This document shows positions 4,904 through 63,790 of a DNA stretch of 64,000 nucleotides, in pieces. Numbering within the stretch: position 1 is the stretch's first letter; each line of letters opens with the position of its first letter. Source of the stretch: Psychrobacillus vulpis (GTDB lineage Bacteria > Bacillota > Bacilli > Bacillales_A > Planococcaceae); the NCBI RefSeq assembly GCF_006861825.1, contig NZ_VDGI01000008.1, positions 62,409 to 126,408 of the forward strand, written 5' to 3'. Made by a program: the position numbers and the translations under genes. The notes beneath the pieces are model-generated. The model did no database searches and was not told the DNA's origin. It worked only from the letters and a program-made list of their open reading frames with translations.

Positions 4904-4914
4904 ATGTATCATAT

Positions 4915-4943
4915 AAAGAGGAGCTGCTATTGCAGCTTCTTTC
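4915..4943 (+). terminator. Terminator of the lysine transporter operon
   Basis: AAGAGGAGCTGC / GCAGCTTCTTT around a TATT loop. The T-tract is short because the next bases (CAGACTATAG) begin a repeat element, suggesting insertion against the terminator. Confidence 0.7.
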
Positions 4944-4990
4944 AGACTATAGGAAAACTGGATAATATCGAGTTTGCCTATAGTCTTTTT
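4944..4990 (+). terminator. Second, repeat-borne terminator-like hairpin
   Basis: AGACTATAGGAAAACT (4944-4959) pairs with AGTTTGCCTATAGTCT (4971-4986), one mismatch, followed by TTTT. The same hairpin type recurs at 8450-8489, near 55050-55085 and at 63920-63962, always at the edge of a repeat mosaic. It belongs to the mobile repeat rather than the operon. Confidence 0.65.
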
Positions 4991-5077
4991 ACTTATAAAA
5001 AGAATTAAGATTAATGGAGTTCGGAAAAGCCACTCGCTTTCCGCGGACGAATCGCCAAGTCTCCTCCTCGCTATGCT

Positions 5078-5312
5078 GAGGGCACTGAAAAAGTCCCTAT
5101 AATTTGACGTTACCAGATGAGGTTGTCCTATATTCCAATACATAAGAAAATCGTTGAAACGGCTCCCTTTCCGCGGGCGTTGCCTCAGCCTCCTCGCTTC
5201 GCTGCGGGGTCTTCGACTAACGCTATTCCCGCAGGAGTGTCGCCTTTTTCAACGATTTTCTAGAAATGAAAAAGTATATATATTAAAAAATAGACTGTTT
5301 TTCAGTGCCCTC
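5078..5312 (+). mobile_element. Non-autonomous element with GAGGGCACTGAAAAA ends
   Basis: The ends GAGGGCACTGAAAAA (5078-5092) and TTTTTCAGTGCCCTC (5298-5312) are perfect 15-bp inverted repeats. The flanks are near-identical 8-mers GCTATGCT (5070-5077) and GCTAAGCT (5313-5320), as expected for an 8-bp target duplication that has since changed by one base. Length is 235 bp with no coding capacity. Confidence 0.65.
5145..5261 (+). repeat. 117-bp inverted-repeat element (AGAAAATCGTTGAAA ends)
   Basis: It begins AGAAAATCGTTGAAA (5145) and ends TTTCAACGATTTTCT (5261), with GCGGGCGTTGCC and CCCGCAGGAGTGTCGCC inside. Related copies are at 5620-5736, 7921-8285 (interrupted), 29610-29892 (interrupted), 35858-35925 (deleted) and 63505-63788 (interrupted). 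Confidence 0.75.
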
Positions 5313-5475
5313 GCTAAGCTCGTGCGGGGTCTTGGACGCTCCGTTTTTCCGCAGGAGTCTCGCAGCTTTTTTCCTCTACGTATTGAATCAAGAAGTGGTT
5401 AAACGTTGATGTCCTTAAACATACAAAATGAACGTGATCAGCTAGTGATGATTAAGTCTTTGTTCAAATAAAAAT

Positions 5476-5845
5476 AGAATTAAGATTAATGGAGTTCGGA
5501 AAAGCCACTCGCTTTCCGCGGACGAATCGCCAAGTCTCCTCCTCGCTGTGCTGAGGGCACTGAAAAAGTCCCTATAATTTGACGTTACCAGATGAGGTTG
5601 TCCTATATTCCAATACATAAGAAAATCGTTGAAACGGCTCCCTTTCCGCGGGCGTTGCCTCAGCCTCCTCGCTTCGCTGCGGGGTCTTCGACTAACGCTA
5701 TTCCCGCAGGAGTGTCGCCTTTTTCAACGATTTTCTAGAAATGAAAAAGTATTTATATTTATAAATAGACTGTTTTTTAGTGCGCCCGCTACGCTCGTAC
5801 GGGGTCTTGGAGCAGGAGTCTCGCAGCTTTTTCCTTTACGTATAT
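5476..5845 (+). repeat. GC-rich intergenic repeat mosaic, copy B
   Basis: Near-perfect direct repeat of 5001-5277 at an offset of 475 bp. It includes another 117-bp AGAAAATCG element (5620-5736). The right inverted end of the outer element is degenerate here (TTTTTTAGTGCGCCC), so this copy looks older or partly deleted. The 81 bases between the copies (5395-5475) hold nothing recognisable. Confidence 0.85.
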
Positions 5846-5857
5846 GGATAAAAGATC

Positions 5858-5898
5858 AAAAGGTTTCGGGAATGTTGGGCATTCCCGAAACCTTTTTT
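5858..5898 (-). terminator. Terminator downstream of copD
   Basis: A perfect 17-bp stem, AAAAGGTTTCGGGAATG (5858-5874) with CATTCCCGAAACCTTTT (5880-5896). It lies 40 bp past the copD stop. A near-copy of the same stem sequence occurs at 63349-63396. Confidence 0.8.
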
Positions 5899-5938
5899 GT
5901 CTTAAATATAGGCTACTAAATGGATAGTTTCTTATCTC

Positions 5939-7027
5939 TTACTTTATACTTAGAATTAGTGCTAAATAGCTAGAAAACACGATTAGAATACTTAACAGAA
6001 ATGTGAGGAATGCAGGAGCTTTTTTAAGAAAAGCATAAATTGTTAAACCAATTAAAAGAATTGATAAGATCAATAGTGATATTCCCTTAACATTAGCTGC
6101 AAGCTCTACGTTCATCACTTGAAGATTTTGCCCTTGATAAAAATAGCTGTAAAGCTTAGAAGGGCCTTCATTCTTAAATGTACTTTCAGTAGGTGGTGAT
6201 TGATGACTTAGTGCTGCCGTTACTGAAAAAATGAGTAATACTACTAAGCTTTCTACCTTAGCCCAAGGCTTCGGATTAAAGGACAAATCATTTTGTAGTT
6301 TCTTTTTCACAAATAGGCTATTAATAGCTGCGTATACAAGCAACGGTATGATTAATAAATGCTTTATTAACAAAAGTTGTCCATAAGGGAGCATCCAAGC
6401 ATCTGTATACTTGTTAAAATCAACCACATATGTCATTAAAACAATTCCAGAAATAGCCGTTACACTAAAGCAAATAATTGCAACTGGTGTAAACCACTTT
6501 AAAAAGTTCAACCAGTTTGAAATCCCTTTAGAAAACCAGCTAACTACTAGTAAAACACCTATCCAAATCGTAACTGCTGCAAAATGACTTGTATGTGTTA
6601 CGAAACCTTTTACATGACTAATGGAGGTAGCGTGACTTGCCCAACCTAATCCTAAAATTAATAGAAACGTTAATACAAGTCCTCCAATCGAATATGTTCT
6701 ATTCGATTGGTTCTCAAACCAGAGAAGAAAAATAAACAGTACATTCGCTACTAGAAAAGTGGAAATCCATGCTTTCCCTACTTCAAATGTACGAAGTACC
6801 ATTTGAGATGTTCCTACAAGATCATTTCCTTTATCCAATTGCAATATTAGCAGCAAAATAGGAACAAATGAAAAGATAGCAATCCCTAAAGTAGCAGTAA
6901 CTTGTATCCATCTTTGTATACTTATCTCTGGTTTTAAAGAACTCGGCACTAGTGCTATAAAAAAACTACCAATTAAAATGGAAAAACAAAGATATAAAAG
7001 TATCTCACTAATAATAAGCATCGTCAT
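5939..7027 (-). CDS. copD: CopD-family copper transport membrane protein
   Basis: A 362-aa membrane protein with about eight to nine hydrophobic segments and a CopD-like C-terminal half. Histidines sit in membrane segments (for example SHATSISHVKGFVTHTSHFAAVTIW). CopD proteins move copper across the membrane, usually with CopC. The copC gene lies immediately upstream with a 3-bp gap, so the two are co-transcribed. In B. subtilis the equivalent YcnJ carries both domains on one polypeptide; here they are separate genes. The direction of copper movement cannot be read from sequence. Confidence 0.82.
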   Translation of the reverse strand: MTMLIISEILLYLCFSILIGSFFIALVPSSLKPEISIQRWIQVTATLGIAIFSFVPILLLILQLDKGNDLVGTSQMVLRTFEVGKAWISTFLVANVLFIFLLWFENQSNRTYSIGGLVLTFLLILGLGWASHATSISHVKGFVTHTSHFAAVTIWIGVLLVVSWFSKGISNWLNFLKWFTPVAIICFSVTAISGIVLMTYVVDFNKYTDAWMLPYGQLLLIKHLLIIPLLVYAAINSLFVKKKLQNDLSFNPKPWAKVESLVVLLIFSVTAALSHQSPPTESTFKNEGPSKLYSYFYQGQNLQVMNVELAANVKGISLLILSILLIGLTIYAFLKKAPAFLTFLLSILIVFSSYLALILSIK

Positions 7028-7030
7028 TTA

Positions 7031-7564
7031 TTATTTCTTTCTACGTAACCAGAAGAAAACACCAACAATGATGGCAATTAATGCAATAACAATGATAGGA
7101 ACTATATTAGTAGATGATTGTACTTCTTCTGCCTGCTTAGCTTGTTCAGTTACAGGAGTTTCTACAGTGTTTTCTTCCTCTACTACTTTATCTTCTACCG
7201 GTGTTTCAGCTGCAGCAACCTCTACTGTAAAAGGAATATTACCTTCGATTGGATGCCCATCTGCTCCAATAATGCTCCAAACTACTTCGTAATTTCCATT
7301 TTCCAAAGGATTTGATAATGCACCTACCATTTGACCTTCATTAATAGAAATATTTTCTACAGGAATTGATTCACCATTCGAATTTTTTAATTCAAACGTG
7401 CTACTTTGTTCTATTTTTCCTTCAAAAGTTAAAGTAATTTCGCTTAATTCTTCCTTAATTACTTCTCCATTTGCAGGTGAAGAACTCTCTAATCCTGTAT
7501 GTGCAAAAGCACTATTTGCAAATGAAAGCATAAAAACAAATGCAATTAAAATTATTTTTTTCAT
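7031..7564 (-). CDS. copC: CopC-domain copper-binding protein
   Basis: 177 aa: a signal peptide ending ...SAFA, then a CopC domain starting HTGLESSSPANGEV. The mature N-terminal His and the ADGHPI motif provide the usual Cu(II) ligands. A Glu/Thr-rich linker follows, then a C-terminal membrane anchor with tail WLRRKK. RBS AGGAGGAAT precedes the ATG. It probably captures copper outside the membrane and hands it to the adjacent CopD. Confidence 0.85.
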   Translation of the reverse strand: MKKIILIAFVFMLSFANSAFAHTGLESSSPANGEVIKEELSEITLTFEGKIEQSSTFELKNSNGESIPVENISINEGQMVGALSNPLENGNYEVVWSIIGADGHPIEGNIPFTVEVAAAETPVEDKVVEEENTVETPVTEQAKQAEEVQSSTNIVPIIVIALIAIIVGVFFWLRRKK

Positions 7565-7920
7565 AACTATTCCTCCTAAATAAAAATACTTAACCTATTA
7601 TACCTAGCCTTTGTGAGAAAAGTATGAAATAAGACTTTGAAGTTTGAAAGCTCATGCAGTATGAAATGTTAGAAATAAGAAAAGTGCAAGCAACCTTTAA
7701 ATGCACCTTGTCTTTAATATTCCCTGAGGGCTTAGTATTAAACGTTTGCTAGGTCATTACCGGAGGTTATTTTTTGGGAGGGTAGGAATGTTCGGAGACA
7801 GACTGCCTTTGGTTTGGCTAATGAAAGAAAAATACTTCCCACTAGCTAAAGCAGCGCCCGAAGATACAATTTCGGGCGCACTTTTGCTTCGTTATGAATA
7901 GATACTACTTTTTCATTTCT
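7565..7920. other. Intergenic region with one terminator-like hairpin
   Basis: GCGCCCGAA (7854-7862) and TTCGGGCGC (7871-7879) form a 9-bp stem followed by ACTTTT. A 37-codon frame at 7788-7901 has a fair RBS (GGGAGGG) but runs through the hairpin and resembles nothing I know. No other gene is visible. Confidence 0.45.
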
Positions 7921-8285
7921 AGAAAATCGTTGAAAAAGGCGACACTCCTGCGGGAATAGCGTTAGTCGAAGACCCCACAGCGAAGCGAGGAGGGCACTGA
8001 AAAAATCGAATTAGTATTTTTGTAGGAACAATTTGCTGTATTTAATTAAGAGAATTTAGCGCGACGCATGAGACTCCTGCGGGAAAGCGAGACAGACGAG
8101 ACCCCGCACGAAGCAGAGCGAAGAAGGAGGAGGCTCGTCGCTCGCCCGCGGAAAGCGAATGCCAAAGCGCAAAATTCTCCTAGGACTATTTGATAGAAAA
8201 TTTATTAGAATAACACTTTTTCAGTGCCCTTGAAGCGAAGAGGCTGAGGCAACGCCCACGGAAAGGGGGCCGTCAACGATTTTCT
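7921..8285 (-). repeat. AGAAAATCG element interrupted by an insertion
   Basis: The outer ends AGAAAATCGTTGAAA (7921) and GTCAACGATTTTCT (8285) mark the 117-bp element in the orientation opposite to copy A. Removing the inner 242-bp insert plus one 8-bp duplication leaves 115 bp. That equals 117 minus the two Ts missing in GTCAACG, so the insertion into an existing repeat is unambiguous. Confidence 0.75.
7990..8231 (-). mobile_element. 242-bp non-autonomous element (GAGGGCACTGAAAAA ends)
   Basis: Inverted ends are GAGGGCACTGAAAAA (7990-8004) and TTTTTCAGTGCCCTT (8217-8231). The 8-bp flanks GAAGCGAG (7982-7989) and GAAGCGAA (8232-8239) are a target duplication with one change. The interior carries the GACTCCTGCGGGAAAGCGAGACAG... 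and CCCGCGGAAAGCGAATG modules. Diverged relatives are at 32685-32986, 35640-35790 and 45810-45977. Confidence 0.7.
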
Positions 8286-8430
8286 TATTTATTGGAATAT
8301 TGGACAACCTCATCCGGCAACGTCAAATTGTAGGGAGTTTTTTTAGTGCCTTCAGCCGTAGAGAGGAGGAGGCATGACGATTTGTCCGCGGAAAGCGAGT
8401 GCATTTTTCCGGACTCCATTAATCTTTATT
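8286..8430 (-). repeat. Remaining outer part of repeat mosaic C
   Basis: Inverted counterpart of the left part of mosaics A and B: TGGACAACCTCATC, a degenerate TTTTTTTAGTGCC end, GTCCGCGGAAAGCGAGTG, and CGGACTCCATTAATCTTTATTC. This makes the locus at least three insertions deep. Confidence 0.7.
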
Positions 8431-8449
8431 CTATTTTATAAGTAAAAAG

Positions 8450-8489
8450 ACTGTAGGAAACCTCATAGTATCGAGTGTGTCTACAGTCA
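8450..8489 (-). terminator. Repeat-borne terminator-like hairpin
   Basis: GACTGTAG (8450-8457) and CTACAGTC (8482-8489) close a stem-loop. Read on the minus strand it ends in a T-rich stretch. It abuts a short CTATCC/GGATAG hairpin that follows the MFS gene, the same terminator-plus-element order seen at 4915-4990. Confidence 0.55.
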
Positions 8490-8522
8490 GAGTCTATCCA
8501 TCTGGGATAGGTTTTTAGTTTG

Positions 8523-9713
8523 TTATTCTGTTATTAAACCAGCTTTTTCTTTTCTTCCATGTAAGAAGAAATAAGGGATGATTGTAATGATAGCTAATAC
8601 TCCTAAAATTACATATAGAATGCTATAACCTGTTAATGGAATAATAAATCCAAGTACATATGGGCCGAAGCCTAGTCCCGCATCTAGGAAGATAAAGAAA
8701 GTAGATGTTGCAAGCCCCATCCGATGCGGTGGTGTTAATTTTACCGCAATAGCTTGAGTTGTCGACTGCATATTACCGAACCCAAGACCAATTAGAATAC
8801 CAGCTAGTAATAACATGAAGCTATTGCTAGCTGTGCTTAGTAGCAGCATTCCTGCACCAAAGATTAAAAAGGCAGGGTACATAATATAGTTTGCACCTTT
8901 TGTATCCATTATACGGCCAGTAAACGGTCGTGATACTAATACTGCAACTGCATATACGATAAAGAAGAAGCTAGCTGTCTCTACTAGATTAATTTCAATA
9001 GCATAGAAGTTGATAAAAGAGAGGGCACTTGCGTAACAAAAAGCAACAACTAATGTTATGAAAGCAATGGGTAATGCTCTCGGTTCTACAAAGTTGGAAA
9101 GCTTGAATCCTTTTGTTTCGGTTGTTTTTGTTGGTATTATGCTTGGCGGAACATGAAGAAAGATTGCAGTGATAAAACTGACAATTCCTAAAGCAAGGCA
9201 GAATGTAAAAATCATATGGAAACTTGTATGATGACTCATATACAGACCAATAAATGGACCGATTGCAGTAGCAAGCGTTGCGCTCATGCTATAGTAACCA
9301 ATTCCTTCTCCTTTTCTTGTCAGAGGGATAATTTGTGCGACAATCGTACCGGAAGCTGTACTTGCTATACCTAACGTTAAACCGTGAAGAAATCGGTTAA
9401 CTAGTAGAAAAGGCAAGCCGAGGTTTACAAAATATAGAGCTGTCGTTAACGTAAATAGGGCTAACCCTATAAACAAAGTTTTTTTACGACCGATTAAATC
9501 GATGACACGGCCTATAAAAAGACGACCAATTAAAGTTCCGATGATAAAAATGCCGGTGACTAAACCAGCTTCACTTGTGGAAGCATTGAATTCGTCCACT
9601 GTATAAACAGCAATTGTTACCATTAATAAATAAAAAATTAACGTTAATAAAAAATTGACAGAGGATACAACGATAAAATCCTTTGTCCATAGTTTAGGTT
9701 TTGTTATATCCAA
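8523..9713 (-). CDS. MFS efflux transporter
   Basis: A 396-aa major facilitator with about 12 membrane segments. The loop 2-3 motif GRLFIGRVIDLIGRKK is present, as is a second-half counterpart (SRPFTGRIMDTKG). It is the second gene of a MarR-led operon: the marR stop and this start are 1 bp apart. That pairing suggests drug or toxic-compound export controlled by ligand binding to MarR. Substrate is unknown. Confidence 0.85.
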   Translation of the reverse strand: MDITKPKLWTKDFIVVSSVNFLLTLIFYLLMVTIAVYTVDEFNASTSEAGLVTGIFIIGTLIGRLFIGRVIDLIGRKKTLFIGLALFTLTTALYFVNLGLPFLLVNRFLHGLTLGIASTASGTIVAQIIPLTRKGEGIGYYSMSATLATAIGPFIGLYMSHHTSFHMIFTFCLALGIVSFITAIFLHVPPSIIPTKTTETKGFKLSNFVEPRALPIAFITLVVAFCYASALSFINFYAIEINLVETASFFFIVYAVAVLVSRPFTGRIMDTKGANYIMYPAFLIFGAGMLLLSTASNSFMLLLAGILIGLGFGNMQSTTQAIAVKLTPPHRMGLATSTFFIFLDAGLGFGPYVLGFIIPLTGYSILYVILGVLAIITIIPYFFLHGRKEKAGLITE

Positions 9714-29492: not shown

Positions 29493-29985
29493 ACAACTAC
29501 AAGTGGTGTTTTCTAGCTCCCCGCCAGTAAAGGTGAGGGAAAGCAGGGCACTGAAAAGGTCTCTATAATTCCACTTTGCCAGATAGGGTGTCCAAAAGTT
29601 TAATTAATATGAAAATCGTTGAAACGGCTCCCTTTCCGGAGGCCACTGAAAAACCAAAATTCAGAAAATAAAGTCACCACTTGAGAAGTATATTTGTATC
29701 AAAATTGGCATGACGTCCCCATAAACACCCTAAAAAGTGAAGGAATTATGGGATTTCGTTTTTATTTTTTGAAAAAAAGTGACTTTTTCAGTGACCTCCC
29801 TTTCCGCGGGCGTTACCTCAGCCTCCTCGCTTCGCTGTGGGGTCTTCACTAACACTATTCCCGCAGGAGTGTCGCCTTTTCAACGATTTTCTAGAAATGA
29901 AAAAACGCGATTAATGCTCTTAATTTCAACTCTTTTTAAGTTCCTTTGAGTAAAGGATAGCGGCTTTTGTATTATAGGTGAACCA
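29493..29985. repeat. Repeat mosaic D
   Basis: No gene between capA and lysR. The region starts with a GCAGGGCACTGAAAA end (about 29544), then TCCAAAAGTTTAATTAATATG. A 117-bp AGAAAATCG element follows (29610-29892), interrupted by a 160-bp insertion (29639-29798). Removing the insertion plus 8 bp leaves 115 bp. Confidence 0.75.
29639..29798 (+). mobile_element. 160-bp non-autonomous element, copy 1
   Basis: The ends GAGGCCACTGAAAAA (29639) and TTTTTCAGTGACCTC (29798) are 15-bp inverted repeats with one mismatch. The flanking 8-bp direct repeat CCTTTCCG (29631-29638 and 29799-29806) is exact. The element matches copy 2 at 63601-63760 over the full 160 bp with one difference. No ORF. It is AT-rich inside a GC-rich host repeat. 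Confidence 0.88.
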
Positions 29986-32684: not shown

Positions 32685-32986
32685 GGAGGGCACGAAAAAC
32701 TCGAATTAGTATTTTTTTAGGAACTATTTGCTGTATTGAATTAAGAGAATTTACCGCGACGCATGAGACTCCTGCGGGAAAGCGAGACAGACGAGACCCC
32801 GCACGAAGCAGAAGAGAGGAAGGAAGGCTAAGGGCGCCTCTTCCTGAGGCATCGCCTTCATGACCAACATCGTGTTGGCCCGAGGAGGCTCGTCGCTCGC
32901 CCGCGGAAAGCGAATGCCAAAGCGATAAATTCTCTTAACGACTATTTGATAGAAAACTTATTAGAATAACATTTTTCAGTACCCTT
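32685..32986 (-). mobile_element. Diverged relative of the 242-bp element
   Basis: Left end GAGGGCAC-GAAAAA (one base deleted) and right end TTTTTCAGTACCCTT. The inner sequence matches 7990-8231 (CTCGAATTAGTATTTTT..., CGCGACGCATGAGACTCC..., GAAAGCGAATGCCAAAGCG) plus about 60 extra bp near 32815-32885. The flanks GTAAAGAT (32677-32684) and GTAATGAT (32987-32994) look like a decayed 8-bp duplication. Confidence 0.6.
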
Positions 32987-63439: not shown

Positions 63440-63790
63440 GGTACTACTTTATAGGGGGCACTGAAAAAACGTCTATTTTTTATGGTAAATACTTTTTCAA
63501 TTCTAGAAAATCGTTGAAAAAGGCGACTCTCCTGCGGGAATAGCGTTAGTCGAAGACCCCGGAGCGAAGCGAGGAGGCTAAGGCAACGCCCGCGGAAAGG
63601 GAGGCCACTGAAAAACCAAAATTCAGAAAATAAAGTCACCACTTGAGAAGTATATTTGTATCAAAATTGGCATGACGTCCCCATAAACACCCTAAAAAGT
63701 GAAGGAATTATGGGATTTCGTTTTTATTTTTTGAAAAAAAGTGACTTTTTCAGTGGCCTCCGGAAAGGGAGCCGTTTCAACGATTCCCCA
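63440..63790 (-). repeat. Repeat mosaic G
   Basis: GGGGGCACTGAAAAA (63454-63468) is an outer end. A 117-bp AGAAAATCG element (63505-63788), in the orientation opposite to copy A, is interrupted at 63601-63760 by the 160-bp element. An open frame crossing it encodes the same spurious peptide as mosaics A and B and is not a gene. Confidence 0.75.
63601..63760 (+). mobile_element. 160-bp non-autonomous element, copy 2
   Basis: The ends GAGGCCACTGAAAAA (63601) and TTTTTCAGTGGCCTC (63760) are a perfect 15-bp inverted repeat. The exact 8-bp direct repeat CGGAAAGG lies at 63593-63600 and 63761-63768. This is the reverse complement of the duplication at copy 1: the same site of the host repeat was hit, in the opposite relative orientation. 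Sequence matches copy 1 except one base. Confidence 0.9.

Follow-up and report, generated by a model that had tools for sequence, protein, structure and literature searches.

Two kinds of element that bear on the insertion described here are already known from the literature: MITEs linked to the IS1182 family (PMC11578231, PMC3852290) and IS1182 elements that strike transcription terminators. MITEPye1 of Paracoccus yeei is a non-autonomous element with IS1182-like ends and direct repeats, and can fold (PMC11578231, as excerpted), and in Methanosarcina acetivorans MITEs of 160 and 169 bp have been paired with ISMac2, an IS1182 member (PMC3852290, as excerpted). The staphylococcal elements IS1272 and TnSha1, which belong to the same family, target hairpins that are often transcription terminators. 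The excerpts that describe them, citing a review, also ascribe palindromic targets to some family members (PMC5678879, PMC4923244), and a duplication of the loop is drawn as one hypothetical pathway in one model (PMC5678879). For Streptococcus pneumoniae, the text consulted describes clusters of the BOX, RUP and SPRITE elements, short repeats that have inserted into each other (PMC10969869).

Here we characterize a 242-bp insert in a 64,000-nucleotide stretch of Psychrobacillus vulpis DNA (the window). The insert, B, is a MITE, that is, a non-autonomous IS derivative, and we are confident that a transposase of the IS1182 family, recognising its GAGG(G/C)CACTGAAAAA ends, mobilised it in trans. 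No description of this repeat family was found in the literature searched, with subscription papers and ISfinder outside the search. The insert and its host have the following parts.

7990-8231, + strand: 242-bp insert, a type-B MITE without a transposase (reading frames inside are all 41 aa or shorter)
7990-8004, + strand: left terminal inverted repeat of the insert, GAGGGCACTGAAAAA
8217-8231, - strand: right terminal inverted repeat of the insert, AAGGGCACTGAAAAA as read on this strand
7982-7989, + strand: left copy of the target-site duplication, GAAGCGAG
8232-8239, + strand: right copy of the target-site duplication, GAAGCGAA, with one substitution
8056-8160, + strand: GC-rich core of the insert, 63% GC, with relatives in the host-element core and in repeats elsewhere in the genus
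7921-7989, - strand: one half of the host AGAAAATCG core, from the alignment of the restored site
8240-8285, - strand: other half of the host AGAAAATCG core, from the same alignment
8339-8353, - strand: GAAGGCACTAAAAAA, a degenerate outer end belonging to the type-A MITE that hosts the insert

Rechecking 7921-8285 confirmed the coordinates that a preliminary description had given for the insertion. Joined together, 7921-7989 and 8240-8285 make 115 bp. The reverse-complemented 117-bp element at 5145-5261 can be aligned with them over the whole length, with 112 of 115 aligned bases identical, three substitutions and one 2-bp gap. The empty site had been called exactly restorable, which holds for its length and not for its sequence; the 8-bp duplicate is present, and its two copies agree at 7/8 positions rather than perfectly. 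The two 15-bp ends of the insert agree at 14/15 positions, and GC content rises from 0.45 over the full insert to 0.63 in the core, that of the window being 0.36. The expectation that intact elements matching the restored junction occur elsewhere in the genome was borne out: among 70 matches listed in a search with the 117-bp element, at least 48 cover at least 115 of its positions, a lower bound given that 40 of 356 candidate regions were scored. The preliminary description could not see that the AGAAAATCG element at 5145-5261 is itself the centre of a larger element, 5078-5312, with the same ends as the insert. A second outer end of the corresponding host element around the insert was not found.

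The insert belongs to a large family. The 4.02-Mb genome contains GGGCACTGAAAAA at 65 places on the forward and 63 on the reverse strand, and these 128 occurrences are not due to chance, since the same motif read backwards occurs 0 times; a pattern for the right end of B likewise finds 82 places and none in its control. Of 55 matches listed for a 238-bp insert query, 43, including the insert itself, cover at least 196 bases at 89-100% identity, and these copy figures are lower bounds, as 40 of 287 candidate regions were scored. We surveyed 76 genome segments (302,689 bases, 255 ends), sorting families by the bases that follow the shared end, and counted 38 complete B copies of 229-242 bp, 20 complete C copies, every one of 160 bp, and four complete A copies of 217-235 bp, most other A copies being interrupted; the centre of A is the AGAAAATCG core, and the IS itself makes up a further group. 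With boundaries fixed at GAGG...CCTC, the identity of left and right flanks was then taken at each length from 3 to 14. For B it has a sole peak, at 8 bp (mean 0.72, against 0.33 for flanks from different copies; n=38), with values of 0.18-0.34 at 4-7 and 9-14 bp; 12 of the 38 duplicates are exact. Among C copies 19/20 are exact at 8 bp, against a control of 0.41 exact that is high because one target is common to all of them.

GAGG(G/C)CACTGAAAAA ends are common to the insert, the 160-bp C element, the larger AGAAAATCG-holding A element and an IS1182-family transposase gene, and they also bound two internally deleted IS copies. These deleted copies, 309 and 515 bp long, retain both IS ends and no more of the transposase than its final 36-39 codons. 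Deleted copies of this kind are thought to be the source from which MITEs arise. It had been proposed that the ends of the insert are of the same class as those of the 160-bp element, which is correct, and that one end type mobilises different cargo, which gains support from the sharing of these ends by three MITE families (A, B and C), two deleted IS copies and a transposase gene.

The resident transposase gene is an intact 492-aa reading frame (contig C23:352499-353974) with DUF772 and DDE_Tnp_1 domains, and it passes the NCBIfam IS1182-family model NF033551 (367.3 bits, cut-off 270). Upstream of it lies GAGGCCACTGAAAAAGTCC. The downstream IS end, GAGG(G/A)CACTGAAAAACCTTAGC, was read from other contigs, in one instance adjoining the final 227 codons of this gene; there is no full copy of the resident IS in one piece because the gene runs to the contig edge. 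Intact IS copies with both ends and a duplication were found in relatives and, in this genome, not within one contig. The IS locus L204 of the relative G008 agrees with a Psychrobacillus soli record over 3056/3056 bases, in keeping with a Psychrobacillus origin of the window. All eight IS loci inspected in genus relatives have the shared end type on both sides (up to three mismatches), and 8-bp flank pairs were read at three loci (CAGTGAAA at L217, AGCGTAGC at L224 and CTAAAGGG at L216). In a wider scan of named genomes, covering 80 IS loci that were the best 80 of 248 relatives, both ends are present at 68/80 with up to three mismatches. An 8- or 9-bp duplication (up to one mismatch) occurs in 50 of the 57 loci with both flanks and not in the other seven; 11 lack a flank. 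At two IS1182 loci of one genome, L206 and L231 in G012, the copies have swapped 8-bp flanks (AACGAAGC and CTTGGTAC), an exchange that appears to be a sign of recombination between IS copies.

Subterminal sequence was also tried as a guide to the partner IS of B and rejected: the best agreement of either B end with the IS ends compared is 14/25 positions. The right end of A agrees with the left end of the resident IS at 17/25, tied with one other IS. In this comparison the right end of the resident IS was 2 bases off register, and its scores may be understated.

The ends, the 8-bp duplication, the family, the empty sites, a transposase gene with the same end, the deleted IS copies and the reuse of slots can all be read directly in the DNA. 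In the mechanism that we propose from them, an IS1182-family transposase would recognise the GAGG(G/C)CACTGAAAAA ends of B, and would excise B or copy it from another place. B would then be joined to cuts staggered by 8 bp within the GC-rich core of an older MITE whose ends are of the same type, and repair of the staggered cuts would leave the 8-bp duplicate. The mover is presumably the resident transposase or a decayed relative, and slots would be chosen by hairpin shape, not by their letters. Weighing against the mechanism are the spread of the resident IS over several contigs, the poor subterminal agreement of B with any IS compared, the perfect 8-bp duplicate in no more than 12 of 38 B copies and the hairpin predictions for B sites given below. 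Four further MITEs in the window, and two slots in the A core, are as follows.

5078-5312, - strand: intact 235-bp MITE of type A, sharing the terminal repeats; the central part, 5145-5261, serves as reference for the empty site
5553-5787, - strand: second MITE of type A, lying in a unit that is present twice (4982-5383 and 5455-5843)
29639-29798, + strand: type-C MITE of 160 bp, occupying the CCTTTCCG slot in an A core
63601-63760, + strand: type-C MITE of 160 bp, likewise occupying the CCTTTCCG slot, on the opposite strand
5166-5173, + strand: CCTTTCCG slot in the A core, which holds 20/20 complete C copies, 7/38 B copies and both IS deletion derivatives
5193-5200, + strand: CTCGCTTC slot (GAAGCGAG on the other strand), which holds the insert and 10 more B copies at the identical junction, plus copies in mirror orientation

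We aligned each restored empty site to four reference repeats. Scores of at least 40 were reached by 29/38 B sites, compared with a median of 9 and a maximum of 37 for 200 random window segments; at nine of the 38 the host match is weak or absent. The 8-bp slots in the A host are shared among B, C and the IS derivatives, and C occupies the CCTTTCCG slot in both orientations. Six B copies lie at one junction of the repeat that also houses the two A copies of this window. The window shows a three-level nest, with the outer repeat containing A and A containing B. The units 4982-5383 and 5455-5843 form a direct, near-identical duplication of the outer repeat with an A element inside. Elsewhere in this genome, A cores stand in regular tandem arrays with spacings of about 180, 214 or 240 bp (contigs C9:64044-65089, C76:56392-57352, C6:62118-62830 and C2:10752-11346).

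The locus itself has been rearranged. It contains genes that we take to encode an ABC transporter, copC, copD and an MFS protein. Two relatives, G003 and G009, carry the ABC transporter gene followed by copC, copD and an oppositely directed MFS gene; compared with them, the copC-copD block of the window is reversed. Inverted MITE clusters lie at both junctions of the turned block (window 4904-8522), and the left cluster (4942-5284) is identical to the right, in inverted alignment and with the insert left out, at 309 of 339 bases. MITE ends are absent from the orthologous place in 4/4 relatives read (G003, G004, G009 and G010), of which G010 has neither the ABC nor the copC-copD genes in the stretch and G004 lacks copC-copD. 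Recombination between the MITE clusters is the likely cause of the copC-copD flip.

Such recombination is also what lends substance to the alternative that survives best, in which an A element already carrying B was moved or copied here through the ends of A, by gene conversion or by recombination between clusters. The similarity of the left and right clusters suggests that exchange between them has taken place at this very locus; A cores are numerous, with 476 core ends found at up to two mismatches (control 42), and the A-core junction is identical in 11/38 B copies, the insert included. Still, B copies differ in their two-sided target alleles (GAAGCGAG pairs and GTAGCGAG pairs) and the slot holds both orientations, so that B was inserted on several separate occasions. 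Moreover, for 29 of the 38 B copies the host is a recognised GC-rich element, these hosts being of several kinds, and the two nearby A copies are without B. We therefore regard arrival as part of a composite as rather unlikely for the insert, and favour transposition of B itself into A.

The GC-rich cores raise a second alternative. The insert interior had been called unrelated to the 160-bp element and GC-rich, and both points hold: the alignment score of 12.5 falls in the range of shuffles (mean 11.3, maximum 17.0), and the core has 63% GC. The B core is related to the core of its A host, scoring 34.5 against at most 16.5 in shuffles, a kinship that the preliminary description could not see. 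Many copies of insert positions 81-166, which correspond to 8072-8157 of the window, are present in other genomes at about 80% identity, and a similar GC-rich stretch, judged by eye and used as a reference host in the slot analysis, lies between the left end of the IS and the transposase gene. The repeats could in principle be structured RNAs or regulatory elements of the host, spread by selection and not by transposition; the approximately 85-bp core has a match in 16/19 genus genomes searched (the own genome included), and the A core folds much better than shuffles (z -4.9). However, target duplications of fixed length, transposon ends, nesting that breaks older copies and absence from the orthologous locus make this very improbable. 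The insert has no Rfam match at gathering score, and 7500-8600 has no promoter-like site against 2.0 expected by chance. A known RNA family was likewise rejected as an explanation of the insert, the six Rfam matches of the window all falling outside it. A match to Bacillaceae-1 RNA (RF01690) at 32812-32878 lies within a B-type element of about 32686-32986 and interrupts its GC-rich core. The genome has 34 RF01690 matches above cut-off, several close to MITE clusters, and the Bacillaceae-1 "RNA family" may be a mobile repeat in its own right. Finally, an arbitrary indel between diverged repeats, by chance or misassembly, would suit the imperfect 7/8 duplicate of the insert and is scarcely credible when the same 8-bp geometry recurs in 38 B copies, 20 C copies and IS copies of other species.

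Returning to transposition by an IS1182-family enzyme, we looked at the shape of the target. In the named genomes, the centre of the duplicated bases falls in a predicted hairpin loop at 46/50 restored IS sites, against 36% in mononucleotide shuffles. Under stricter controls (49 usable sites, 44 distinct), loop placement is predicted at 40/44 distinct sites, compared with 3-20/44 for places displaced by 12-40 bases and 37% for dinucleotide shuffles, and a U-tract stands at terminator spacing at 39/44 sites versus 34/176 displaced places. It is thus well supported by these predictions that full IS copies of the group lie mostly in the loops of intrinsic terminators, with the loop duplicated. 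IS1182 copies at three loci in Ureibacillus and Bacillus infantis (L264, L272 and L275) are in similar GC-rich repeats, not terminators.

The MITEs are less clear in this respect. B sites fall in a predicted local loop in 18/38, 14/38 and 11/38 cases with flanks of 18, 24 and 32 nt, counts not distinguishable from dinucleotide shuffles (36%, 32% and 24%, respectively), so that for B we claim preferred slots and not shape. Pairing of the arms beside B duplicates is not above the control for the IS set (mean 3.63/8 versus 3.53). C sites are in a predicted loop in 18/20 cases against 37% in shuffles, counts that are not independent because all 20 represent one site. One idea, which we consider evenly balanced between right and wrong, is that the IS1182 group and its MITEs recognise their targets by DNA shape, landing on hairpin tips and duplicating the tip, where IS1272 deletes the hairpin. 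As the cores of the MITEs are hairpins of this kind too, every insertion would then add new landing sites, and the MITE cores would become self-made, nested docking stations that spare genes.

From a single insertion, a defined transposon system emerges, with a mover, three passenger families, a footprint length and preferred slots. The landing of IS1182 copies in terminator loops that are duplicated offers a direct route to ask if a DDE transposase reads DNA shape. The genome is also an example of how hundreds of repeats can be gathered with little gene damage, and the probable copC-copD flip illustrates how MITE clusters can seed inversions.

Compared with described systems, B is like MITEPye1 in being non-autonomous, with ends resembling those of an IS1182-family IS, with direct repeats and with the ability to fold; MITEPye1 differs in its 1-3 chromosomal copies and its 18-bp ends of another element, and nesting is not described in the excerpt available (PMC11578231). 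The ISMac2 MITEs share with B an assigned IS1182-family partner, and differ in being archaeal and in repeat sizes that the excerpt gives as 26/4 and 25/0, thus without an 8-bp duplication (PMC3852290). BOX, RUP and SPRITE resemble the B nest in the mutual insertion of short repeats, and are other elements in another organism, with no IS1182 link stated in the text consulted (PMC10969869). The IS group described here resembles IS1272 and TnSha1 in its hairpin and terminator targets; IS1272, as excerpted, deletes the stem-loop without duplication, whereas the present group keeps the stem and duplicates an 8-9 bp tip (PMC5678879, PMC4923244). Stem-loop replacement of the IS1272 type was considered for this group and does not agree with the 8- or 9-bp duplication in 50 of the 57 complete named copies. 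The palindromic target attributed to some family members was found for the presumed mover, as judged by the 40/44 distinct sites in a predicted loop. Loop duplication without hairpin loss by an IS1182 element was not found in the literature searched, with subscription papers and ISfinder again outside the search, and looks like a variant of known behaviour. What is new here is the kinship of the B core with the core of its host, together with the 8-bp host slots common to B, C and the IS derivatives.
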